Made by a program: the position numbers and the translations under genes. The notes below the pieces were generated by a model. It saw nothing but the letters and a program-made list of their open reading frames with translations, did not search any database and had not been told where the DNA came from. This document shows positions 11,921 to 26,420 of a stretch of DNA of 64,000 bases, piece by piece. Source of the stretch: Alphaproteobacteria bacterium (GTDB lineage: Bacteria; Pseudomonadota; Alphaproteobacteria; UBA8366; Aestuariispiraceae); contig JASJDC010000015.1 of assembly GCA_030065235.1 (NCBI GenBank), positions 1 through 64,000 of the forward strand. Direction: 5' to 3'. Every line of letters starts with the position of its first letter. Within the stretch, counting starts at the first letter, position 1.

Positions 11921-11941
11921 GACCCGACTAGTTTTGTGGAA

Positions 11942-12163
11942 ATGGCCGGTTCCGACGACAATCTCTTGCGTTTTCCGCAATCCCGCGTGCGCGGTCCCGG
12001 CGCCCGTCGTCCGGTCAAAGTGATCGGCATGACCAAACTGGCCGAAACAATCAATCCCAGCGGCAACGGCGCCATGGGCCACTGGTGCAGCCGCTGCAAG
12101 GGCGTCTGGTTCGGCTGCGGCGGCGAAACCGAATGCCCCGCCTGCGGCAACCGCCACGGTTGA
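11942..12163 (+). CDS. Small zinc-ribbon protein
   Basis: 73 residues starting 21 bp after hupR. The C-terminus has two CxxC knuckles (CSRCKGVWFGCGGETECPACG) expected to bind one zinc ion; the N-terminal half is basic and proline-rich with no recognisable domain. ATG 11942 is chosen over the in-frame GTG at 11936. The short spacing suggests co-transcription with hupR. Function unknown; a DNA, RNA or protein-binding accessory role is possible. Confidence 0.6.
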   Translation: MAGSDDNLLRFPQSRVRGPGARRPVKVIGMTKLAETINPSGNGAMGHWCSRCKGVWFGCGGETECPACGNRHG

Positions 12164-12208: not shown

Positions 12209-13744
12209 TCAATCGGCGTTTTCCGGAATCGTGGTTCCGCCCGCGCCGCCGGGAGTGCGCGTTTCGCGATACCGTTCGAGCTGTTTTCGGCGGAAATCCT
12301 CGGCCGTGTAGCCGCTGAGATATGAATCCGCTTTTTCCAGAAGCGCCAAGGCGCGGTCGGCGTCGCCCTCCCAATCCGCGAGCAAGGCCCGACAGAGCGC
12401 TGCTAGGGCCAATGTGTCGGGCGAGAAGCCTTTTGAAAGCACTGACATGGAGCCTGAAAACACTGGTATGGAGCGCATAAAATCTCGCGCCCGCTCATCC
12501 GCGCCGCTTTCAAGTAGGGCTTGCGCCCAGATCAATTGGCTTGTCAGAGTGTCTGGGTGCTCGGCTCCCTCGACTTTTTCCAACAACGGCAAGAGGGACT
12601 TGAATTGGTCCGCCGCTTCGGCTGCGCGGCCTTGGTACAGGATTGCGCGGGCGAGTGTCTGCCGAGTTATCAGTGTATTCGGGTCCTCGGCGCCTCTAAC
12701 TTTTTCTTGCAGCGGCAAGAGCGTATCGAACAGAGCCTCCGCCTCTGCCGCGCGGCCTTGGACTAAAACTGCGCGGGCGAGGTCGTGCCGAGTTGTGAGT
12801 GTGTTCGGGTGCTCGGGGCCCCTTACTTCTTCTTGTAGCGGTAGTAGCGCCCTAAACTGGCTCTCCGCCTCCGCCGCGCGGCCTTGGTTCAGGATTGCGC
12901 GGGTGAGTATGTGCCGGGTTGTAAGTGTATCGCGGTCCTCTGGGCCTCTGACTTTCTCATCCAACTGCAGCAGCGCGCCTAACAGGGCTTCCGCTTCCGG
13001 CGCACGATCTTGGTCCAGGATTGCGCGGGCGAGTGTCTGCCGAGTTATGAGCGTGTTTGGGTGCTCGGCGCCTCTGACTTTATCATCCAACGCGACGAGC
13101 GCTTCTAGAAGGGTTTCGGCCTCCGCGGCGCGGCCTTGCTCGTAGACCGAGCGAGCGAGATAAAACCGGGTAGCCAGCGTGTTGGGTTCTTCGGCCTGGT
13201 CGAGGGCGACGCGCCAGTCGAGGCAGATCTGGAACAGCGCCTCGGCCAGCCGGGCCGCGCTTGTCGTTCCCTCATCCAGGATTTTAACGCCGCGTTCATG
13301 GAGATCGAAATCGGAGTCGCCGACCTCCGCCAGGATGGTCTCGATCCGGTCCAGCAAGTCAGGCGGCCATGATCGATTCGGCCCGAACGCCAACGCGGGC
13401 GGCAGGGCGCCGGTCTCGGCCTCCGCGTTTTGCTCGGAAGAGAGTTGATCCGGCCCGATCTTGGCCCCGCGCAGATCGGCTTGATCCAGCCGCGCGCCGG
13501 TCAGGATCGCGCCGGTCAGGTCGACGCGCCGGAGCACCGCGCCGCTGAGATCGACGCCCGACAAGTCGAACCCCGTCAGGTCCTCTTCTGGCTGCAAGAC
13601 GATCCGGGTGAGCGGCACGCCCCGCAGATCCGCCGCCGGGTCCAATCCGGCGAGGCGGACAAGATGCGTAAACCGTCCATCCTCGGCCTCCGCGACCGCG
13701 GCCAAGGCCGCCCGTTCGTCCCCGTCAAAAAAGCCGGAACTCAT
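12209..13744 (-). CDS. Pentapeptide-repeat and tandem TPR protein
   Basis: 511 residues. Residues about 54-98 form nine A/DLxxx pentapeptide repeats (DLTGF DLSGV DLSGA ...), which fold into a right-handed beta helix. Residues 185-436 hold five full and one partial 42-residue kinesin-light-chain-like TPR repeats (HPNTLxTRxxLARAIL, QGRAAEAE, LLPLxEKVRG). No catalytic motif or signal peptide is seen. Its ATG overlaps the stop of the upstream unknown gene (ATGA), so the two are translationally coupled. The architecture suggests a protein-protein scaffold; partner and role are unknown. Confidence 0.8.
   Translation of the reverse strand: MSSGFFDGDERAALAAVAEAEDGRFTHLVRLAGLDPAADLRGVPLTRIVLQPEEDLTGFDLSGVDLSGAVLRRVDLTGAILTGARLDQADLRGAKIGPDQLSSEQNAEAETGALPPALAFGPNRSWPPDLLDRIETILAEVGDSDFDLHERGVKILDEGTTSAARLAEALFQICLDWRVALDQAEEPNTLATRFYLARSVYEQGRAAEAETLLEALVALDDKVRGAEHPNTLITRQTLARAILDQDRAPEAEALLGALLQLDEKVRGPEDRDTLTTRHILTRAILNQGRAAEAESQFRALLPLQEEVRGPEHPNTLTTRHDLARAVLVQGRAAEAEALFDTLLPLQEKVRGAEDPNTLITRQTLARAILYQGRAAEAADQFKSLLPLLEKVEGAEHPDTLTSQLIWAQALLESGADERARDFMRSIPVFSGSMSVLSKGFSPDTLALAALCRALLADWEGDADRALALLEKADSYLSGYTAEDFRRKQLERYRETRTPGGAGGTTIPENAD
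12563..13192 (-). repeat. Five tandem 126-bp TPR-coding units
   Basis: The DNA coding residues 185-394 of the pentapeptide/TPR protein is five near-identical 126-bp units in tandem, with a degenerate sixth unit after it. Units differ mostly at scattered bases, indicating recent duplication and a capacity to change copy number by recombination. Confidence 0.8.
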
Positions 13745-14673
13745 GCTTCTTCCTCTGGCTTAGCTCGGGTCAGCCGGGCGCGCGCGAGGACAAGCCGGCC
13801 GTGAAAATCCGCCCCGTCGTCCGAGCTTTCAACCTCATTGGCGTCCTCGCTTACCAACCCGATCGCGGCGGCGCGCCTTTCCAGCGCCTTCGCGAAAAGG
13901 GCGCGAAAGACGGCGTCCCGGTTCGCCGTATCCGTATTGAAAAGACCGCCCATCAGCGTTCGCTTTTCACCCGCGACCCAGATATCGGGGCGCGTGACGA
14001 TCAGCGAGACGGTCACATCAGCCGCGCCATCGTCGAAAGTGACATCGCACAGCGGGTCATCCCCGATCATGCGTTCCTGCAAGGCCGGCCGATCTTCATT
14101 CAGCACGACGGCGGCCAGCCCCCAGCACCGTATGCTGACCTGCCACACGTCTTTATAGTGTCGGACAAAGGCGCCTTCCCCTACCTGTTCTTCAGAGACC
14201 GCCTGCCGCCATTGACCGCTCGCCTTGGCTTGTAGAGTGAGGTGTCGCAACCAGGGCGGCGTTTCACCATCGACGCCCCCGGCGGTGTTCCCGCTCTTCT
14301 CCGACTCGCTTCTCTCGGTCGATGAGTAGTTCTTGGAATAGACGATGCGTTCATATCTTGGGTTCAATGGGATACCGCCAACACGGGTCTCGACCTCGAT
14401 GTGCGCGGAGGCAAGGCCGAACTCCATCATTTTGACGCCGCTTGGCGTGGGGATCTCTTCTTGAACCTTGTTGAACCAAGCGCCGACGGACAGCCCAAAC
14501 CTATCCACATGTTGGAACTGCGTCATCGCCTCGACCATGATTGAGGCCAAAGCTTCCACAGGATTCTCGGGATCGTGGATTGTGAACAAAGCGCTCTCCG
14601 GTCGAGCAAAAATGAAGGCTATTACGCATTGTTGTATCGGCCAACCCGATGCTGCGCCTTGGCTCAATACCAA
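13741..14673 (-). CDS. Unknown protein coupled to the TPR gene
   Basis: Up to 310 residues from a TTG at 14673; upstream in frame there is no ATG or GTG before a stop. The next ATG is at 14538, but the residues between (CVIAFIFARPES) read like genuine protein, so the true N-terminus is unsettled and may have been lost. The middle has WLRHLTLQAKASGQWRQ and the rest is mixed charged sequence with no motif I recognise. Translationally coupled to the TPR protein, so they probably act together. Codon use does not stand out. Confidence 0.55.
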   Translation of the reverse strand: MVLSQGAASGWPIQQCVIAFIFARPESALFTIHDPENPVEALASIMVEAMTQFQHVDRFGLSVGAWFNKVQEEIPTPSGVKMMEFGLASAHIEVETRVGGIPLNPRYERIVYSKNYSSTERSESEKSGNTAGGVDGETPPWLRHLTLQAKASGQWRQAVSEEQVGEGAFVRHYKDVWQVSIRCWGLAAVVLNEDRPALQERMIGDDPLCDVTFDDGAADVTVSLIVTRPDIWVAGEKRTLMGGLFNTDTANRDAVFRALFAKALERRAAAIGLVSEDANEVESSDDGADFHGRLVLARARLTRAKPEEEA

Positions 14674-14943: not shown

Positions 14944-15906
14944 ATGGCCAATCTATTATGGCTGCAGGGCGGCGCCTGCTCTGGGAACACGATGTCGTTC
15001 CTGAACGCCGAAGAACCGAGCGCCTGCGACTTGGTGACGGATTTCGGGATCAACGTGCTCTGGCAGCCTTCGTTGGGGCTTGAGCTCGGCGACAATGTGA
15101 AAGCCATTTTGGAGAAGTGCATTTCCGGCGAGATTCAGCTGGATATTTTCGTATTCGAAGGCTCGGTCGTGAACGCGCCCGACGGCACGGGGAACTGGAA
15201 CCGGTTCTGCGGCCGGCCCATGAAAGAGTGGGTGCGCGAGCTGTCCGACGCGGCGCAGTTTGTCGTCGGCATCGGCGATTGCGCGACCTATGGCGGCATT
15301 CCGGCGACCGCGCCGAACCCGTCCGAGAGCCAGGGCCTGCAATTCCTGAAGCGCGAGCATGGCGGTTTCCTGGGCGCCGACTTCACCTCGAAGGCGGGCC
15401 TGCCGGTGATCAACATCCCGGGCTGTCCGGCGCACCCGGATTGGGTCACGCAAATCCTGGTGGCGGTCGCGACGGGCCGCGCCGGCGATCTGACGCTGGA
15501 CGAGTTTCAGCGGCCGAAGACCTTCTTCTCGAGCTTCACCCAGACAGGCTGCACGCGAAACATGCATTTCGCCTATAAGGTCTCGACCACGGCCTTCGGT
15601 CAGCGAAAAGGCTGCCTGTTCTATGATCTCGGCTGCCGCGGTCCGATGACCCACAGCCCCTGCAACCGGATCCTATGGAACCGGGTCTCGTCCAAGACCC
15701 GCGCCGGGATGCCGTGTCTGGGCTGCACCGAGCCGGAATTCCCATTCTTCGATCTTGCGCCGGGCACGGTGTTCAAGACCCAGACCATGATGGGCGTGCC
15801 GAAAGACCTGCCGGAGGGCGTCGACAAGAAGGGCTATATCAAGCTGACCGCCGCCGCCAAGGGCGCCGCGCCGGCTTGGGCCGAAGAAGATATTTTCGTC
15901 GTCTAA
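14944..15906 (+). CDS. hupS: Group 2a uptake [NiFe]-hydrogenase small subunit
   Basis: 320 residues from ATG 14944, which follows GGGGAGGAAGG. There is no Tat signal, so the enzyme is cytoplasmic or on the inner face of the membrane. The N-terminus MANLLWLQGGACSGNTMSFL is of the cyanobacterial HupS type: in the usual proximal-cluster motif CTGCSE the second cysteine is Asn here. Other cluster ligand regions are GDCATYGG, GCPAHPDW, FTQTGCTRN, KGCLFYDLGC and MPCLGCTEP. The subunit carries three Fe-S clusters that move electrons from the NiFe site. The first gene behind the sigma54 promoter. Confidence 0.96.
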   Translation: MANLLWLQGGACSGNTMSFLNAEEPSACDLVTDFGINVLWQPSLGLELGDNVKAILEKCISGEIQLDIFVFEGSVVNAPDGTGNWNRFCGRPMKEWVRELSDAAQFVVGIGDCATYGGIPATAPNPSESQGLQFLKREHGGFLGADFTSKAGLPVINIPGCPAHPDWVTQILVAVATGRAGDLTLDEFQRPKTFFSSFTQTGCTRNMHFAYKVSTTAFGQRKGCLFYDLGCRGPMTHSPCNRILWNRVSSKTRAGMPCLGCTEPEFPFFDLAPGTVFKTQTMMGVPKDLPEGVDKKGYIKLTAAAKGAAPAWAEEDIFVV

Positions 15907-15934: not shown

Positions 15935-17530
15935 ATGTCAGCAGTTGAAACGCTCGACATCTCGCCCGTCGGCCGCGTCGAAGGGGACTTGGACGTTCGG
16001 GTGGACATTCAGGACGGCGTCGTCACGAACGCCTGGACCCATGCGGAGCTGTTTCGCGGGTTCGAGGTGATCCTGCGCGACAAGGACCCGCAGGCGGGTC
16101 TGGTCGTTACGCCGCGCGCGTGCGGCATTTGCGGCGCGTCGCATCTCAGCAGCGCCGCTTGGGCTCTGGACACGGCCTGGGGCTCGACGGTGCCAAGGAA
16201 CGCGATCCTGGCGCGGAACCTGGGGCAGATCGTCGAGACGATCCAGTCCCTGCCGCGCCACCACTATGGCTTGTTCATGATTGATTTCACCAATCAAAAT
16301 TATATGAACAGCCCGTTCTTTGAGGAAGCGGTGAAACGTTATTCGCCTTTCACCGGTACGTCCTATGAGGCGGGCGTAACGATTTCCGGCCGACCGGTCG
16401 AGATCTACGCGCTCTTGGGCGGGCAGTGGCCGCATTCGTCCTACATGGTGCCGGGCGGCGTGATGTGCGCCCCGACCCTGACCGACGTGACGCGGGCCTG
16501 GTCGATCCTGGAGCATTTCCGCCGCAATTGGATCGAGCCGCTCTGGCTTGGTTGTTCGATGGAGCGCTATGAGGAAATCCAGTCCTATGACGACTTCATG
16601 GCCTGGCTCGACGAGAAGCCGGAGCACGCCAATTCCGACCTTGGCCTCTACTGGCGCATGGGTGAGGAAATCGGCCTGACGAACTATGGCCGCGGTCATG
16701 GCAAGTTCGTCTCTTGGGGCTACCTGCCGCATGAGGACAAATACAACAATCCGACGATCGAAGGCCGCCAGGCCGCCGTTCTGATGAAGTCCGGCGTTTA
16801 TGACGGCGCGACCGACAGCCATAAGGTGATGGATCAGGTCTTCGCCCGCGAAGATACGATGCACGCTTGGTACGAGGAAGGCGGCGAGGCGCATCCGTTC
16901 GACCGCACCACCAACCCGATCGCCAAGAACCCCGTCGATATCGACGGCAAGTATTCCTGGGCGACGGCGGTGCGGCATGCGGAGAACGGCCGTCTGGAAG
17001 CGGGTCCTCTGGCGCGTCAATTGATCGCCGGCGGCGACCATGGCGAGGATTGGCAGCATACCGATCCGCTGATCCTGGACATGTACCGCAAGATGGACGG
17101 ACCCTCGATCCTGCTGCGGCACTTCGCCCGGATGCACGAGCTGTGCAAACTCTATCGCCAGTCGGAGCGCATCCTGCGCGAGTTCCGTCTGAACGACGAG
17201 TGGTACATCAAGCCGACCGAAAAGGACGGTCAGGGCTGGGGCGCCACCGAAGCGGCCCGCGGCGCTCTGTGCCACTGGATCGATATCCGCAATGGCAAGA
17301 TCCACAACTATCAGATGATCGCGCCGACAACCTGGAATGTCGGACCGCGTGCGTCGGACGGAGAGCGGGGCCCGATCGAAGAGGCCTTGATCGGAACCCC
17401 GATCAAAAATACCGCCGATCCGGTCGAGGTCGGCCATGTCTGCCGGTCTTACGACTCGTGCCTGGTCTGCACCGTGCACGCGCATGACGCCAAGACGGGG
17501 GAAGAACTGGCGCGCTTCAGAACCGCATGA
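15935..17530 (+). CDS. hupL: Group 2a uptake [NiFe]-hydrogenase large subunit
   Basis: 531 residues; AGGAGG precedes ATG 15935. The NiFe site is coordinated by the L1 motif RACGICGASH (Cys63, Cys66) and the L2 motif DSCLVCTVH (Cys509, Cys512, His515); Ser replaces the Pro of the common DPC form, as in cyanobacterial-type enzymes. Sixteen residues follow His515, a C-terminal peptide that the HupD-type protease should remove after nickel insertion. It pairs with HupS 28 bp upstream. The reaction is H2 to 2 H+ and 2 e-. Group assignment is from memory of family motifs, not a tree. Confidence 0.96.
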   Translation: MSAVETLDISPVGRVEGDLDVRVDIQDGVVTNAWTHAELFRGFEVILRDKDPQAGLVVTPRACGICGASHLSSAAWALDTAWGSTVPRNAILARNLGQIVETIQSLPRHHYGLFMIDFTNQNYMNSPFFEEAVKRYSPFTGTSYEAGVTISGRPVEIYALLGGQWPHSSYMVPGGVMCAPTLTDVTRAWSILEHFRRNWIEPLWLGCSMERYEEIQSYDDFMAWLDEKPEHANSDLGLYWRMGEEIGLTNYGRGHGKFVSWGYLPHEDKYNNPTIEGRQAAVLMKSGVYDGATDSHKVMDQVFAREDTMHAWYEEGGEAHPFDRTTNPIAKNPVDIDGKYSWATAVRHAENGRLEAGPLARQLIAGGDHGEDWQHTDPLILDMYRKMDGPSILLRHFARMHELCKLYRQSERILREFRLNDEWYIKPTEKDGQGWGATEAARGALCHWIDIRNGKIHNYQMIAPTTWNVGPRASDGERGPIEEALIGTPIKNTADPVEVGHVCRSYDSCLVCTVHAHDAKTGEELARFRTA

Positions 17531-17557: not shown

Positions 17558-17593
17558 AACGAGGCGAAGGGGCTGTGCATCCTTCGCCTCGTT
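17558..17593 (+). terminator. Hairpin after hupL
   Basis: AACGAGGCGAAGG pairs perfectly (13 bp) with CCTTCGCCTCGTT around a 10-base loop, starting 27 bases after the hupL stop. Only CCTTATA follows, not a clean T run, so it may be a partial terminator or a stabiliser that raises hupSL mRNA relative to the genes behind it. Confidence 0.65.
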
Positions 17594-17661: not shown

Positions 17662-18111
17662 ATGACGACACCCGCTGAAACTGGCGTCGCGGCTGACGCT
17701 CAATCGGGGGGCCAGACCGGCGCCCAACCTTCCGCCGGCGCTTCCGTCGCGCCCGCCACCGAGGCGGCCGACTTTCTCGAGAAATATGGCGTTACGCCGG
17801 CCCAGGCCGATCACGACACTTTGGTGCGCATGATCACCGACCTGTTGAATGACGGGCTGAAAACTCGGACCGAACCGTTCCCTGAGGATAACAAGGAATT
17901 CGCCGACATTCTTGAGGAGTTGCGGGGGTTGTCGGCCGATCAGTTGCGCGAGAAGCTGGTGATCTCCGGCTGGCTCTTGAAGCCCTACGGCGAAGACGAA
18001 ATGCGCTGTCAGGAATGCATGTATTTTCTTTTCCACAAGCGGTGGTGCGACCTGCCGGAATTGATGCTGCCCGCCGAACCGGACTGGTGGTGCCGGCTCT
18101 GGCGGATTTGA
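17662..18111 (+). CDS. HiPIP-like small Fe-S candidate protein 1
   Basis: 149 residues. A low-complexity Ala/Gly/Pro N-terminus (1-35) leads to a helical part and a cysteine-rich tail with Cys116-x2-Cys119-x9-Cys129-x14-Cys144, closing CRLWRI. The CxxC, the third Cys and the terminal W-C-x-x-W resemble the ligand order of high-potential iron-sulfur proteins, though spacing is shorter and there is no export signal. The tail is 26/34 identical to that of the next gene, so they are paralogs. GGGGAGATAAG precedes ATG 17662. Placed between hupL and the protease, it is likely a cytoplasmic electron carrier or cluster-bearing subunit of this hydrogenase (inference). Confidence 0.65.
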   Translation: MTTPAETGVAADAQSGGQTGAQPSAGASVAPATEAADFLEKYGVTPAQADHDTLVRMITDLLNDGLKTRTEPFPEDNKEFADILEELRGLSADQLREKLVISGWLLKPYGEDEMRCQECMYFLFHKRWCDLPELMLPAEPDWWCRLWRI

Positions 18112-18152
18112 AACGGCGGTAGAAGCCGGCGCACCGGAACAGGAGGGGGAAG

Positions 18153-18485
18153 ATGGACGCCAAAGCCTCATCTGCCGAGGACGACGCGCTGCGCGCCGAA
18201 ATCGCGGAAAAACTGGCGGGCGGTCTCGAGACCGAGGTCTGGCCGCGCGCGGAAACTTCGGAGATGGTCAACGACATCGTCGGCCGGTTGAAGACCGAAG
18301 CGGGCGACGATCTGACAACGAAGCTGGTGGTCGCCGGCGTGACTGATCACGTGATCGAGGCGGACGATCTCGAACAGCCGTGCGAGACCTGCATGTATTT
18401 CCTGGTCCATCGCCGTTTCTGTGAACTCCCGGAACTGATGCTGCCGGTCGAGCCGGACTGGTCTTGCCGGCTGTGGCGAATTTGA
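18153..18485 (+). CDS. HiPIP-like small Fe-S candidate protein 2
   Basis: 110 residues, paralog of the preceding gene but without the low-complexity leader. Cysteines are Cys77-x2-Cys80-x9-Cys90-x14-Cys105, ending CRLWRI, with the shared core LPELMLPxEPDWxC. AGGAGGGGG lies 5 bases before ATG 18153. The stop overlaps the protease ATG by one base. Two diverged copies side by side could form a heterodimer or serve two contact sites on HupSL. Confidence 0.65.
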   Translation: MDAKASSAEDDALRAEIAEKLAGGLETEVWPRAETSEMVNDIVGRLKTEAGDDLTTKLVVAGVTDHVIEADDLEQPCETCMYFLVHRRFCELPELMLPVEPDWSCRLWRI

Positions 18486-19045
18486 TGGACGGGTCGGCGC
18501 TGCAAAACCGCGCAAGCTCGGCGGCCGAGCCGAATGAGCAGGCGGCCGTTTCGGAACTCAGCCTGGCGGTGATCGGCTGCGGCAATCCGAATCGGCGCGA
18601 CGACGGCGCCGGGCCTGCGGTGATCGCCGCGCTCCGACAGGGTCAATTGCCTGATCGCGTGCGTCTGTTTGACGCTGGCACCGACGGCATGGGGGTGATG
18701 TATGCGGCCAAAGGCGCGTCCCATCTGATACTCGTGGACGCGCGTGCGCCGGAGGGAGAGCCCGGCGCCATCTTTGACGTGCCGGGCGACTTCCTGGAGG
18801 CGCAACCGCCGCAGAGTTTCAACCTTCATGACTTCCGGTGGGACCATGCGCTTTTTGCGGGAAAGAAAATATATGGCGACGCTTTTCCGAAACAGGTCAA
18901 AGTGTTTCTGATCGAGGCCGCCGATCTCGATCTTGGATTGGGCTTGAGCGAACCGGTGGCGCAAGCGGTGACGAAGGTTGCGGACCAGATCGCGGCGCTC
19001 GCCGGCTCTTTCGCTTCCGGCGCCTCGGCGGGGGACTGGTCGTGA
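18485..19045 (+). CDS. hupD: Hydrogenase maturation endopeptidase
   Basis: 186 residues from ATG 18485, which shares a base with the previous stop; an in-frame TTG at 18464 is less likely. The HupD/HyaD/HoxW family motif GCGNPNRRDDGAGP opens the domain, followed by FDAGTDGM and LHDFRWDHAL, which carry the acidic and histidine residues expected to sense nickel. It should cut the HupL C-terminal peptide after His515. The first 30 residues are low complexity. Overlaps the next gene by 4 bp. Confidence 0.92.
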   Translation: MDGSALQNRASSAAEPNEQAAVSELSLAVIGCGNPNRRDDGAGPAVIAALRQGQLPDRVRLFDAGTDGMGVMYAAKGASHLILVDARAPEGEPGAIFDVPGDFLEAQPPQSFNLHDFRWDHALFAGKKIYGDAFPKQVKVFLIEAADLDLGLGLSEPVAQAVTKVADQIAALAGSFASGASAGDWS

Positions 19046-20470: not shown

Positions 20471-20665
20471 ATGGAACTAGTGATAGTAGCTGCCGCCCTG
20501 GTCGCGGGCATCGCTGCGGCGATGGCGGGCGGGGCCCTGTCGGGCATGCGCATTGGCGCGGAAGCCTTGGGCGCCGAACTGGCGGCTTATATGGGCTCGC
20601 TCTACGGTTTTCTGTCTGGAACCGTCGCCGTGATTATCGGCGTCGCGGTCCTGATGCTGATTTAG
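20471..20665 (+). CDS. 64-aa two-helix membrane protein
   Basis: Almost wholly hydrophobic: helix one about residues 3-25, Gly/Ala-rich, and helix two about 43-64 (GTVAVIIGVAVLMLI) with a short loop containing SLYGF. AGGAGTG precedes the ATG. Directly followed by another tiny membrane protein, both just upstream of the NifU-Rieske gene. Probably a membrane anchor or quinone-site component for the hydrogenase relay (inference from position). Confidence 0.7.
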   Translation: MELVIVAAALVAGIAAAMAGGALSGMRIGAEALGAELAAYMGSLYGFLSGTVAVIIGVAVLMLI

Positions 20666-20678
20666 GGAGGCCGGCGCG

Positions 20679-20900
20679 ATGATCGATATGGTGATGCAAT
20701 CCAGCAAACTGTTTTTTGCCGGCAAGCTTTTCAAAGATAACAAGCAGGTCATGCAGCGACTGGCGATCGGGGCCGGTCTCGGCGCCATTGTCACGGTTGG
20801 CGTCGGCTATGTTGCGCCGATCTGGGCCGCGGCGATCGCCGGCGGATTGGTGGCGGGGGTGCTGCAGCCGATCCTGTTTAAAGACCTGAAATACGCGTGA
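20679..20900 (+). CDS. 73-aa membrane protein
   Basis: A basic amphipathic N-terminus (SSKLFFAGKLFKDNKQVMQR) precedes two hydrophobic segments, about 27-45 and 48-66, and a short basic tail (KDLKYA). Thirteen bases separate it from the previous gene and four from the NifU-Rieske gene, so all three are surely co-expressed. No motif is recognised. The basic N-terminal helix could hold a soluble partner to the membrane. Confidence 0.7.
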   Translation: MIDMVMQSSKLFFAGKLFKDNKQVMQRLAIGAGLGAIVTVGVGYVAPIWAAAIAGGLVAGVLQPILFKDLKYA

Positions 20901-20904
20901 CGCC

Positions 20905-21867
20905 ATGAACAGTCTGATCGAAACGCCGACGCCCCAAGGCGCGGAAGCGCCCGTGTCGTCAACCAGCGCGGAGGCCGCGGTTTCCTCGACGACCCCAGCC
21001 GCGTCTGCGCCGGAGGAGCCGCGTGATTTGGCGGCGATGCTGTCGGATATCGATCGGCTGGCGGAACTGGCCGAGGGCTGGTCCGATGAACAACGCATCG
21101 CGGCCGAGGCGCGGGTTCGAGCGGTCGACGCCCTAAACGCCGAGGCTTTGCGACGGATGATCCGAGCCTTGCGCGAGGTCCCTGGCATGGCGCCGGCGCT
21201 GAAACAGGCCGCGGCGGACGAGGTGGTCTATGCGGTCCTGCGCCGTCACGGAATTCTGAAGCCTTCGCTGCATGAACGGGTCGAGGCGGCGCTCGACAGC
21301 ATCCGCCCGATGCTGGCCAGCCATGGCGGCGATGTCGAAGTGGTGAATATCGAGCCGCCGGTTGTGGAGGTGCGGTTTCTCGGCGCCTGCGACGGCTGTC
21401 CCGCCTCCGCCTTGACCTTCTATTCCGGCGTTAAAAAGGCGATCAAGGAGAACGTCCCGGAGATCGAGGAGATCAAACAGGTCAAGGGGTTGGCCGCCGG
21501 CAAGGGCGACGCCAAGGACACCGTCTATTTCACGTCTCCTTTCGCCTCCTATGAGAAAGAGGGTTGGACCCTGGCCGCGCAACTGCGCGACGTGCCGGAC
21601 GGTTTCACCAAGATCGTCGAGGTCGAGGGCCAGTCGATCCTGCTCTCCCGTTTCGGCGATCGCGTCACCTGTTTCGCCAACGCCTGCGCCCATATGGGCA
21701 TGACGATGGATAGCGGCGAAATTGCCGACGGGATCATCACCTGCCCCTATCACGGTTTCCAATATGCGCTCGAGAGCGGCGAATGCCTGACCGCGCCGGA
21801 GGTGCAGTTGCAGCCGCATGGCGTACGCGTCATCGGTGACCGGATCGAAGTGCAGTTGACGGCGTGA
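20905..21867 (+). CDS. NifU-like / Rieske fusion electron-transfer protein
   Basis: 320 residues. A low-complexity start (1-40) and helical region lead to a NifU C-terminal-like domain (about 120-195) with Cys162 and Cys165 (CDGC), then a Rieske [2Fe-2S] domain (about 205-320) with Cys261, His263, Cys280 and His283 (CAH, CPYH). The NifU part can hold a bridging cluster between subunits. A protein with these two domains is described for the Huc cluster (HucE) and is thought to connect the hydrogenase to the respiratory chain. No signal peptide. Strong candidate for the HupSL redox partner. Confidence 0.9.
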   Translation: MNSLIETPTPQGAEAPVSSTSAEAAVSSTTPAASAPEEPRDLAAMLSDIDRLAELAEGWSDEQRIAAEARVRAVDALNAEALRRMIRALREVPGMAPALKQAAADEVVYAVLRRHGILKPSLHERVEAALDSIRPMLASHGGDVEVVNIEPPVVEVRFLGACDGCPASALTFYSGVKKAIKENVPEIEEIKQVKGLAAGKGDAKDTVYFTSPFASYEKEGWTLAAQLRDVPDGFTKIVEVEGQSILLSRFGDRVTCFANACAHMGMTMDSGEIADGIITCPYHGFQYALESGECLTAPEVQLQPHGVRVIGDRIEVQLTA

Positions 21868-25703: not shown

Positions 25704-26420
25704 ATGTCGTCGGACGCCACGCTGAAATCGCTCTATCCGTTTTTGCACGGCGACAAGCAGGACGCCGCCGCCATGACCGACGCGTTGGTCGAGTCGGTGC
25801 GGCAGAAGGCGGCGCATCATGTCAGCGTGTTTGATGATTTCTTCGCCCGCAACGCCGAGACTTTGGCGGCGGCGGCGGAGACTGTCGCCGAGACCTATCG
25901 CCAGGGCGGCCGCCTGCTGACCATGGGCAATGGCGGGTCGAGTTGCGATGCGGCCCATGTCGCGGTCGAGTTTCAGCACCCGGTGACTGCCGGCCGCCCG
26001 GCCTTGCCGGCGATCAATCTGACCTCCGAGGTCGCCATGCTGACGGCGGTCGGGAACGATGTCGGCATGGACCATATCTATGTCCGGCAGGTGCTGGCGC
26101 AGGGACGGGAAGGCGACTGCCTGATCGGACTCTCCACCAGCGGCAATTCCGACAATCTGGTGCGCGCCTTCCGCAAGGCCAGGGAGATGGGGATCGCGAC
26201 GATCGGATTTTCGGGCATGTCCGGCGGCAAGATGGCGACGATGGGTTTGAACCATTGCCTGACGGTCGAGACGGACAGCGTGCATCGCATCCAGGAGGTT
26301 CACCTGGCCGCCTATCATATGATCTGGGATCTGGTGCATACCCTGCTGGCGGACAGCCGTGGCGCGTCGGGTTCGATGGACCCGATTAAGAAATCGAATG
26401 GCCTGGGAGGCCCAGCATGA
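25704..26420 (+). CDS. SIS-domain (GmhA-like) sugar isomerase inside the hyp operon
   Basis: 238 residues, a phosphoheptose isomerase-type SIS fold with MGNGGSSCDAAHVAVEF and LIGLSTSGNSDNLV, the phosphosugar-binding loops, and a final helix with EVHLAAYHMIWDLVH. In GmhA the reaction is sedoheptulose-7-phosphate to D-glycero-manno-heptose-7-phosphate. Lying between hypC and hypD with a 4-bp overlap into hypD, it probably serves hydrogenase maturation rather than LPS synthesis; no other heptose genes are near. Its role there is unknown to me. Confidence 0.85.
   Translation: MSSDATLKSLYPFLHGDKQDAAAMTDALVESVRQKAAHHVSVFDDFFARNAETLAAAAETVAETYRQGGRLLTMGNGGSSCDAAHVAVEFQHPVTAGRPALPAINLTSEVAMLTAVGNDVGMDHIYVRQVLAQGREGDCLIGLSTSGNSDNLVRAFRKAREMGIATIGFSGMSGGKMATMGLNHCLTVETDSVHRIQEVHLAAYHMIWDLVHTLLADSRGASGSMDPIKKSNGLGGPA

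Follow-up and report, generated by a model that had tools for sequence, protein, structure and literature searches.

Paired HiPIP-like proteins encoded with one branch of group 2a [NiFe] hydrogenases: candidate cytoplasmic electron carriers

Introduction

How do electrons pass from a group 2a hydrogenase to the respiratory chain? In the Huc enzyme, electrons exit HucSL through the small subunit, and menaquinone is thought to enter by way of the HucM stalk (PMC10017518). Enzymes without HucM need another route, either a soluble carrier or a bound relay. In the hydrogenase operon of an alphaproteobacterium of the Aestuariispiraceae, two small tandem genes, here called A and B, lie between hupL and hupD. 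The original prediction, made from the letters of this DNA, had described their products as paralogues with a HiPIP-like cysteine pattern, and offered cytoplasmic [4Fe-4S] carriers or extra hydrogenase subunits as explanations. The window referred to below is the whole stretch of DNA analysed, 64,000 nucleotides of contig JASJDC010000015.1.

The hydrogenase operon

The features discussed here are the following, all on the forward (+) strand.

14944 to 15906, +: hupS/hucS, group 2a small subunit, without a Tat signal
15935 to 17530, +: hupL/hucL, group 2a large subunit
17558 to 17593, +: perfect 13-bp hairpin between hupL and A (fold z -3.5)
17662 to 18111, +: protein A, 149 aa; tail, helical domain and C-terminal HiPIP-like domain
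18007 to 18108, +: HiPIP-like domain of A, with Cys116, 119, 129 and 144
18153 to 18485, +: protein B, 110 aa, paralogue of A; helical and HiPIP-like domains
18381 to 18482, +: HiPIP-like domain of B, with Cys77, 80, 90 and 105
18485 to 19045, +: hupD-type (HycI-type) maturation protease, its ATG over the stop of B
20471 to 20665, +: 64-aa hydrophobic protein, probable Asr0689 counterpart by position and two-TM character
20679 to 20900, +: 73-aa hydrophobic protein, probable Asr0690 counterpart
20905 to 21867, +: NifU-Rieske protein of the HucE type, in the same operon

The best PDB match of HupL is the Mycobacterium smegmatis Huc (7uus, 610 bits), which places the enzyme in group 2a. Nine cysteines of HupS (12, 113, 161, 203, 224, 231, 240, 258 and 261) are conserved in all clades and are equal to those of HucM-type and cyanobacterial HupS. 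No export signal was found on HupS, and A and B show neither a signal peptide nor a hydrophobic stretch, in agreement with the absence of export signals and the cytoplasmic location that had been predicted. Hairpins of unrelated sequence occupy the site between hupL and A in many relatives. This hairpin is a possible attenuation or processing point, and perhaps limits the expression of A and B relative to HupSL.

Downstream of hupD, a small protein and a TPR protein precede the 64- and 73-aa hydrophobic proteins, and by ORF reading the NifU-Rieske gene is followed by an NHL protein, hypF, hypC, a SIS-domain gene and hypD. This gene order resembles that of the extended hyp operon of Nostoc, which holds two 2-TM proteins, Asr0689 and Asr0690 (PMC2408588). 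By position and two-TM character, the hydrophobic proteins are probably the counterparts of these two. They travel with A and B, are missing from HucM-type loci, and possibly form a membrane anchor.

Several other genes of the region were recorded. The SIS-domain (GmhA-like) gene lies inside the hyp cluster at 25704-26420 (+), and GmhA is included in the list of hup-cluster proteins of Acidithiobacillus ferrooxidans (PMC7735108). Upstream, a 75-aa protein at 11936-12163 (+) ends in GHWCSRCxGxWxxxxxxECPxCGNRHG; it is zinc-ribbon-like, belongs to no Pfam family, and is kept upstream of hupS in about 20 loci with A and B (for example L001, L010, L028, L055 and L056). Two genes that read in the other direction (-), one of the pentapeptide/TPR type and one that belongs to no family, occupy 12209-14673, with the sigma54 regulator/zinc-ribbon genes on one side and hupS on the other. 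This insertion is not seen in the annotated plasmid relatives L055-L057.

Two paralogous genes between hupL and hupD

Both ORFs are present as predicted, with hupL upstream and the TGA of B overlapping the ATG of the protease gene. In A, an N-terminal tail of about 35 residues is not conserved. On recounting, 26 of the 34 C-terminal residues are identical between A and B, and the pattern C-x2-C-x9-C-x14-C-x2-W occurs only in these two proteins in a six-frame translation of the window. Both end in CRLWRI followed immediately by the stop. The likeness goes beyond what had been described and covers roughly 105 residues; when only the N-terminal parts are compared the score is 74, and shuffled sequences reach 55 at most. 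Since the similarity also covers the N-terminal helical parts, A and B are full paralogues.

Relatives were found at 31 loci in alpha- and betaproteobacteria and in two cyanobacterial MAGs of non-photosynthetic type, which have A without B. The A-B pair keeps its gene order across alpha-, beta- and gammaproteobacteria, so both are real genes. In a tree, all A sequences form one group (support 0.92) separate from B, so the duplication is old. The four cysteines, a tryptophan two residues before the last cysteine and another three residues after it are invariant in 47 sequences, and nearly all members stop exactly at LWRI, with LWRV in one group. A TGA reported inside the A gene of one relative (G224) was found to sit upstream of the ORF.

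Relationship to HiPIPs

A template-free AlphaFold2 model of B, built from 46 alignment rows, reached a pLDDT of 95 and a pTM of 0.86; an earlier run with A and 18 rows was poor (pLDDT 55) and was not used. The first-ranked PDB match of the B model in Foldseek is the Rhodothermus HiPIP, with a probability of 0.23 and an E of 0.42 that is not significant by itself. In VIA-align, the six entries shown are all HiPIPs, with Z of 4.8-5.6, where a Z under 8 alone is no proof of fold; 1isu superposes on the model with an rmsd of 2.0 Å over 52 of 62 residues. Each of the two matches to the predicted structure is weak alone.

Aligning the C-terminal domain with HiPIPs by hhalign covered only 13 columns (probability 49%), and a shuffle test with a HiPIP HMM was therefore used. 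The mean score of the 46 C-termini is 6.5 bits, and that of cysteine-preserving shuffles is -0.3 (sd 1.9); every C-terminus exceeds the 95% point of the null, with the reservation that these sequences are related and not independent. Pfam HIPIP (PF01355) finds two members over the cysteine region below its gathering cut-off of 22 bits, and the best score among the 46 members is 12.3 bits (E 0.21). With A and B as queries, no family in Pfam or NCBIfam reaches its cut-off, and sequence searches of Pfam, NCBIfam and the PDB with A, B and their profiles returned noise only. The B profile also matched designed helical repeats over its helical part only, and these matches were discarded.

Like HiPIPs (PF01355; 1isu, 3h31), A and B have four cysteines spaced C-x2-C-x9-C-x13/14-C, an aromatic residue just before the last cysteine, a tryptophan three residues after it, and, in the B model, the predicted HiPIP fold. 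The short true HiPIPs L091, L110 and L112 read C-x2-C-x9-C-x13-C, one residue off the spacing of A and B. Rubredoxins and zinc ribbons have two CxxC knuckles; here there is one CxxC, and the third and fourth cysteines are isolated. The best reading of these data is that the C-terminal domain is a HiPIP-fold domain that would carry a [4Fe-4S] cluster. Thus the HiPIP likeness of the original prediction holds. Its statement that the proteins match no named family stands in so far as all Pfam and NCBIfam scores remain below cut-off, but the fold is HiPIP-like, and a protein beside hupLS of A. ferrooxidans had already been named a putative HiPIP (PMC7735108).

Linkage to one branch of HupL

Across the sampled proteobacterial genomes and plasmids, A and B occur only beside group 2a HupL that is at least 76% identical to that of the window. 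They were found in four of 398 Pseudomonadota genomes, exactly the four with HupL of at least 79%, and in none of 31 Pseudomonadota genomes with other [NiFe] large subunits. Similarly, B and a HupL of at least 79% are found in the same 12 PLSDB plasmid records, and five group 2a plasmids with HupL of 54-56% have neither gene. In the gammaproteobacterial sample, the pair lies directly behind hupL in five genomes, with a broken copy in a sixth. The distances of A and B track those of HupL (r of 0.78 for A and 0.84 for B). The co-occurrence of the motif with group 2a hupL that had been proposed is therefore borne out in these genomes, and the motif was not found away from hydrogenases. A and B occur nowhere but in company with group 2a hupSL, yet not with all of it, as the cyanobacterial and HucM-type enzymes show.

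Among 194 Cyanobacteria, A is present in one genome only, and 28 others have HupL at 69-76%; A and B are thus absent from 28 of 29 cyanobacteria with a close HupL. A scan of the cyanobacterial hup loci for any similar small cysteine protein found none. Roughly half of the cyanobacterial genomes (L075-L078) give hupL matches that begin at residue 167, a start that the known hupL excision element would predict.

The single extra match among the Pseudomonadota genomes (G372, L037) comes from the antisense strand of a carboxylase-type gene and was excluded. A one-sided gammaproteobacterial match (G782) is a broken A gene in a decayed hup operon. In this locus (L084), hupL is truncated, A is broken after RCLEL and transposase-like sequence adjoins; it is a decaying copy of the operon.

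Mutual exclusion with HucM

HucM, a DUF1641 protein, lies beside or close to hucS in the Mycobacterium, Thermus and Sulfobacillus loci, and the M. intracellulare copy matches 7uus_Q at 2.9e-34. These three loci contain neither A nor B, nor the two hydrophobic proteins. Conversely, DUF1641 (PF07849) was found nowhere in 11 A-bearing genomes, the window's own included, nor in four gammaproteobacteria with the pair or 16 cyanobacteria with a close HupL. Profiles of A and B do not match HucM (7uus_Q). HucM and the A-B pair are mutually exclusive in the loci examined, of which only three are of the HucM type. Since Runella has neither A and B nor an annotated DUF1641, the two together do not cover all group 2a enzymes.

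Possible roles of A and B

On balance, we favour the reading that A and B work in the cytoplasm as HiPIP-fold [4Fe-4S] proteins dedicated to this hydrogenase and carry electrons from HupS toward quinone. Each protein would consist of a short helical domain and a HiPIP-fold domain with one [4Fe-4S] cluster on its four cysteines. A and B would bind HupSL, accept electrons from the distal cluster of HupS and send them on in the direction of the membrane quinone; the HucE-type NifU-Rieske protein and the operon's two small membrane proteins are possible intermediates. We infer the cluster and its potential, the binding to HupSL and the electron transfer alike. Together with the HucE-type protein and the two membrane proteins, A and B are candidates for the relay where HucM is missing. 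Against such a role, cyanobacterial group 2a enzymes (HupL 69-76%) work without A and B, which are accordingly not needed for the core enzyme.

The same cyanobacterial enzymes bear on a rather unlikely alternative, in which A and B assist the assembly or protection of the hydrogenase, like the rubredoxin-like HupI/HoxR or HupGHJ for group 1d. That close enzymes manage without the pair fits such a role, as does the position of the genes directly before the maturation protease gene, and a part in small-subunit maturation has been suggested for the cyanobacterial operon genes that lie between hupSL and hyp (PMC2408588). The predicted fold, however, is HiPIP-like and not that of a rubredoxin with two CxxC knuckles, and the shared cysteines of HupS are equal with and without A and B, so that no extra need in maturation is visible. 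Small CxxC proteins often bind zinc, and the four cysteines might instead form a zinc ribbon for protein contacts; the single CxxC, together with the HiPIP fold and profile evidence, makes this very improbable, and matches to the UHRF1 zinc domain are noise only (E above 1).

A purely structural role appears improbable to us as well. Here the clusters would be structural or regulatory, as in the beta and gamma subunits of benzylsuccinate synthase (BSS), and the helical domains would organise HupSL or, in the manner of HucM, anchor it to the membrane. The mutual exclusion with HucM is consistent with this, and BSS likewise has two paralogous HiPIP-like subunits, which shows that such subunits can have roles other than electron carriage (PMC12590467). 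But the HucM-type proteins compared lack the cysteine motif and any sequence relation to A and B, cyanobacteria have neither HucM nor the pair, and a structural role alone leaves the four conserved cysteines and W-x-C-x-x-W of both paralogues unexplained.

Returning to the electron-carrier reading, a broader and more tentative proposal is that membrane coupling varies within group 2a. A HucM quinone stalk would serve Actinomycetota, Deinococcota and Bacillota, and a cytoplasmic HiPIP relay of A and B may serve proteobacteria, where it would deliver electrons to small membrane proteins and to the ubiquinone pool. A and B would then form a HiPIP wire that leads from a hydrogenase inside the cell, and HiPIPs, mostly known as periplasmic carriers, would gain a cytoplasmic respiratory role. 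The pair is a concrete candidate for the electron route from group 2a enzymes to respiration outside mycobacteria, atmospheric-H2 scavengers included, and the family accounts for two unannotated 'hypothetical proteins' in many genomes.

Comparison with known systems

The HiPIP idea for this operon is already published. Kucera 2020 names one protein beside hupLS of A. ferrooxidans a putative HiPIP, detected by proteomics, and proposes it as an electron link to ubiquinone (PMC7735108). Like A and B, this protein (DN052_04130) adjoins hupLS in a group 2a operon. The passages on it name this one protein, with no analysis of family, fold or linkage. The order of gene numbers fits A being DN052_04130 and B being DN052_04125; because rusticyanin, sought as the sign of an A. 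ferrooxidans type, was found in none of five gammaproteobacterial genomes with the pair, this link is one that we infer. The two-paralogue family, its structural evidence, the helical domain, the strict linkage to HupL and the exclusion of HucM were not found in the literature searched, whose coverage is incomplete, and appear to be new here.

Compared with HiPIPs (PF01355), A and B lack a signal for export to the periplasm, have an extra N-terminal helical domain, end two residues after the tryptophan, score below the Pfam threshold, and are two paralogues tied to a hydrogenase. BSS likewise has two small [4Fe-4S] subunits with the HiPIP fold, beta and gamma, but it is a glycyl radical enzyme and these clusters are not respiratory-chain carriers (PMC12590467). 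HucE (NifU-Rieske) is, as A and B would be, an Fe-S accessory protein of the same operon with a proposed part in electron relay (PMC6883350); it has other domains and is present in addition to the pair. HucM is also an accessory protein of a group 2a hydrogenase, in its case a coiled-coil quinone tube forming the stalk of mycobacterial Huc (PMC10017518); it has neither the cysteine motif of A and B nor any sequence relation to them.
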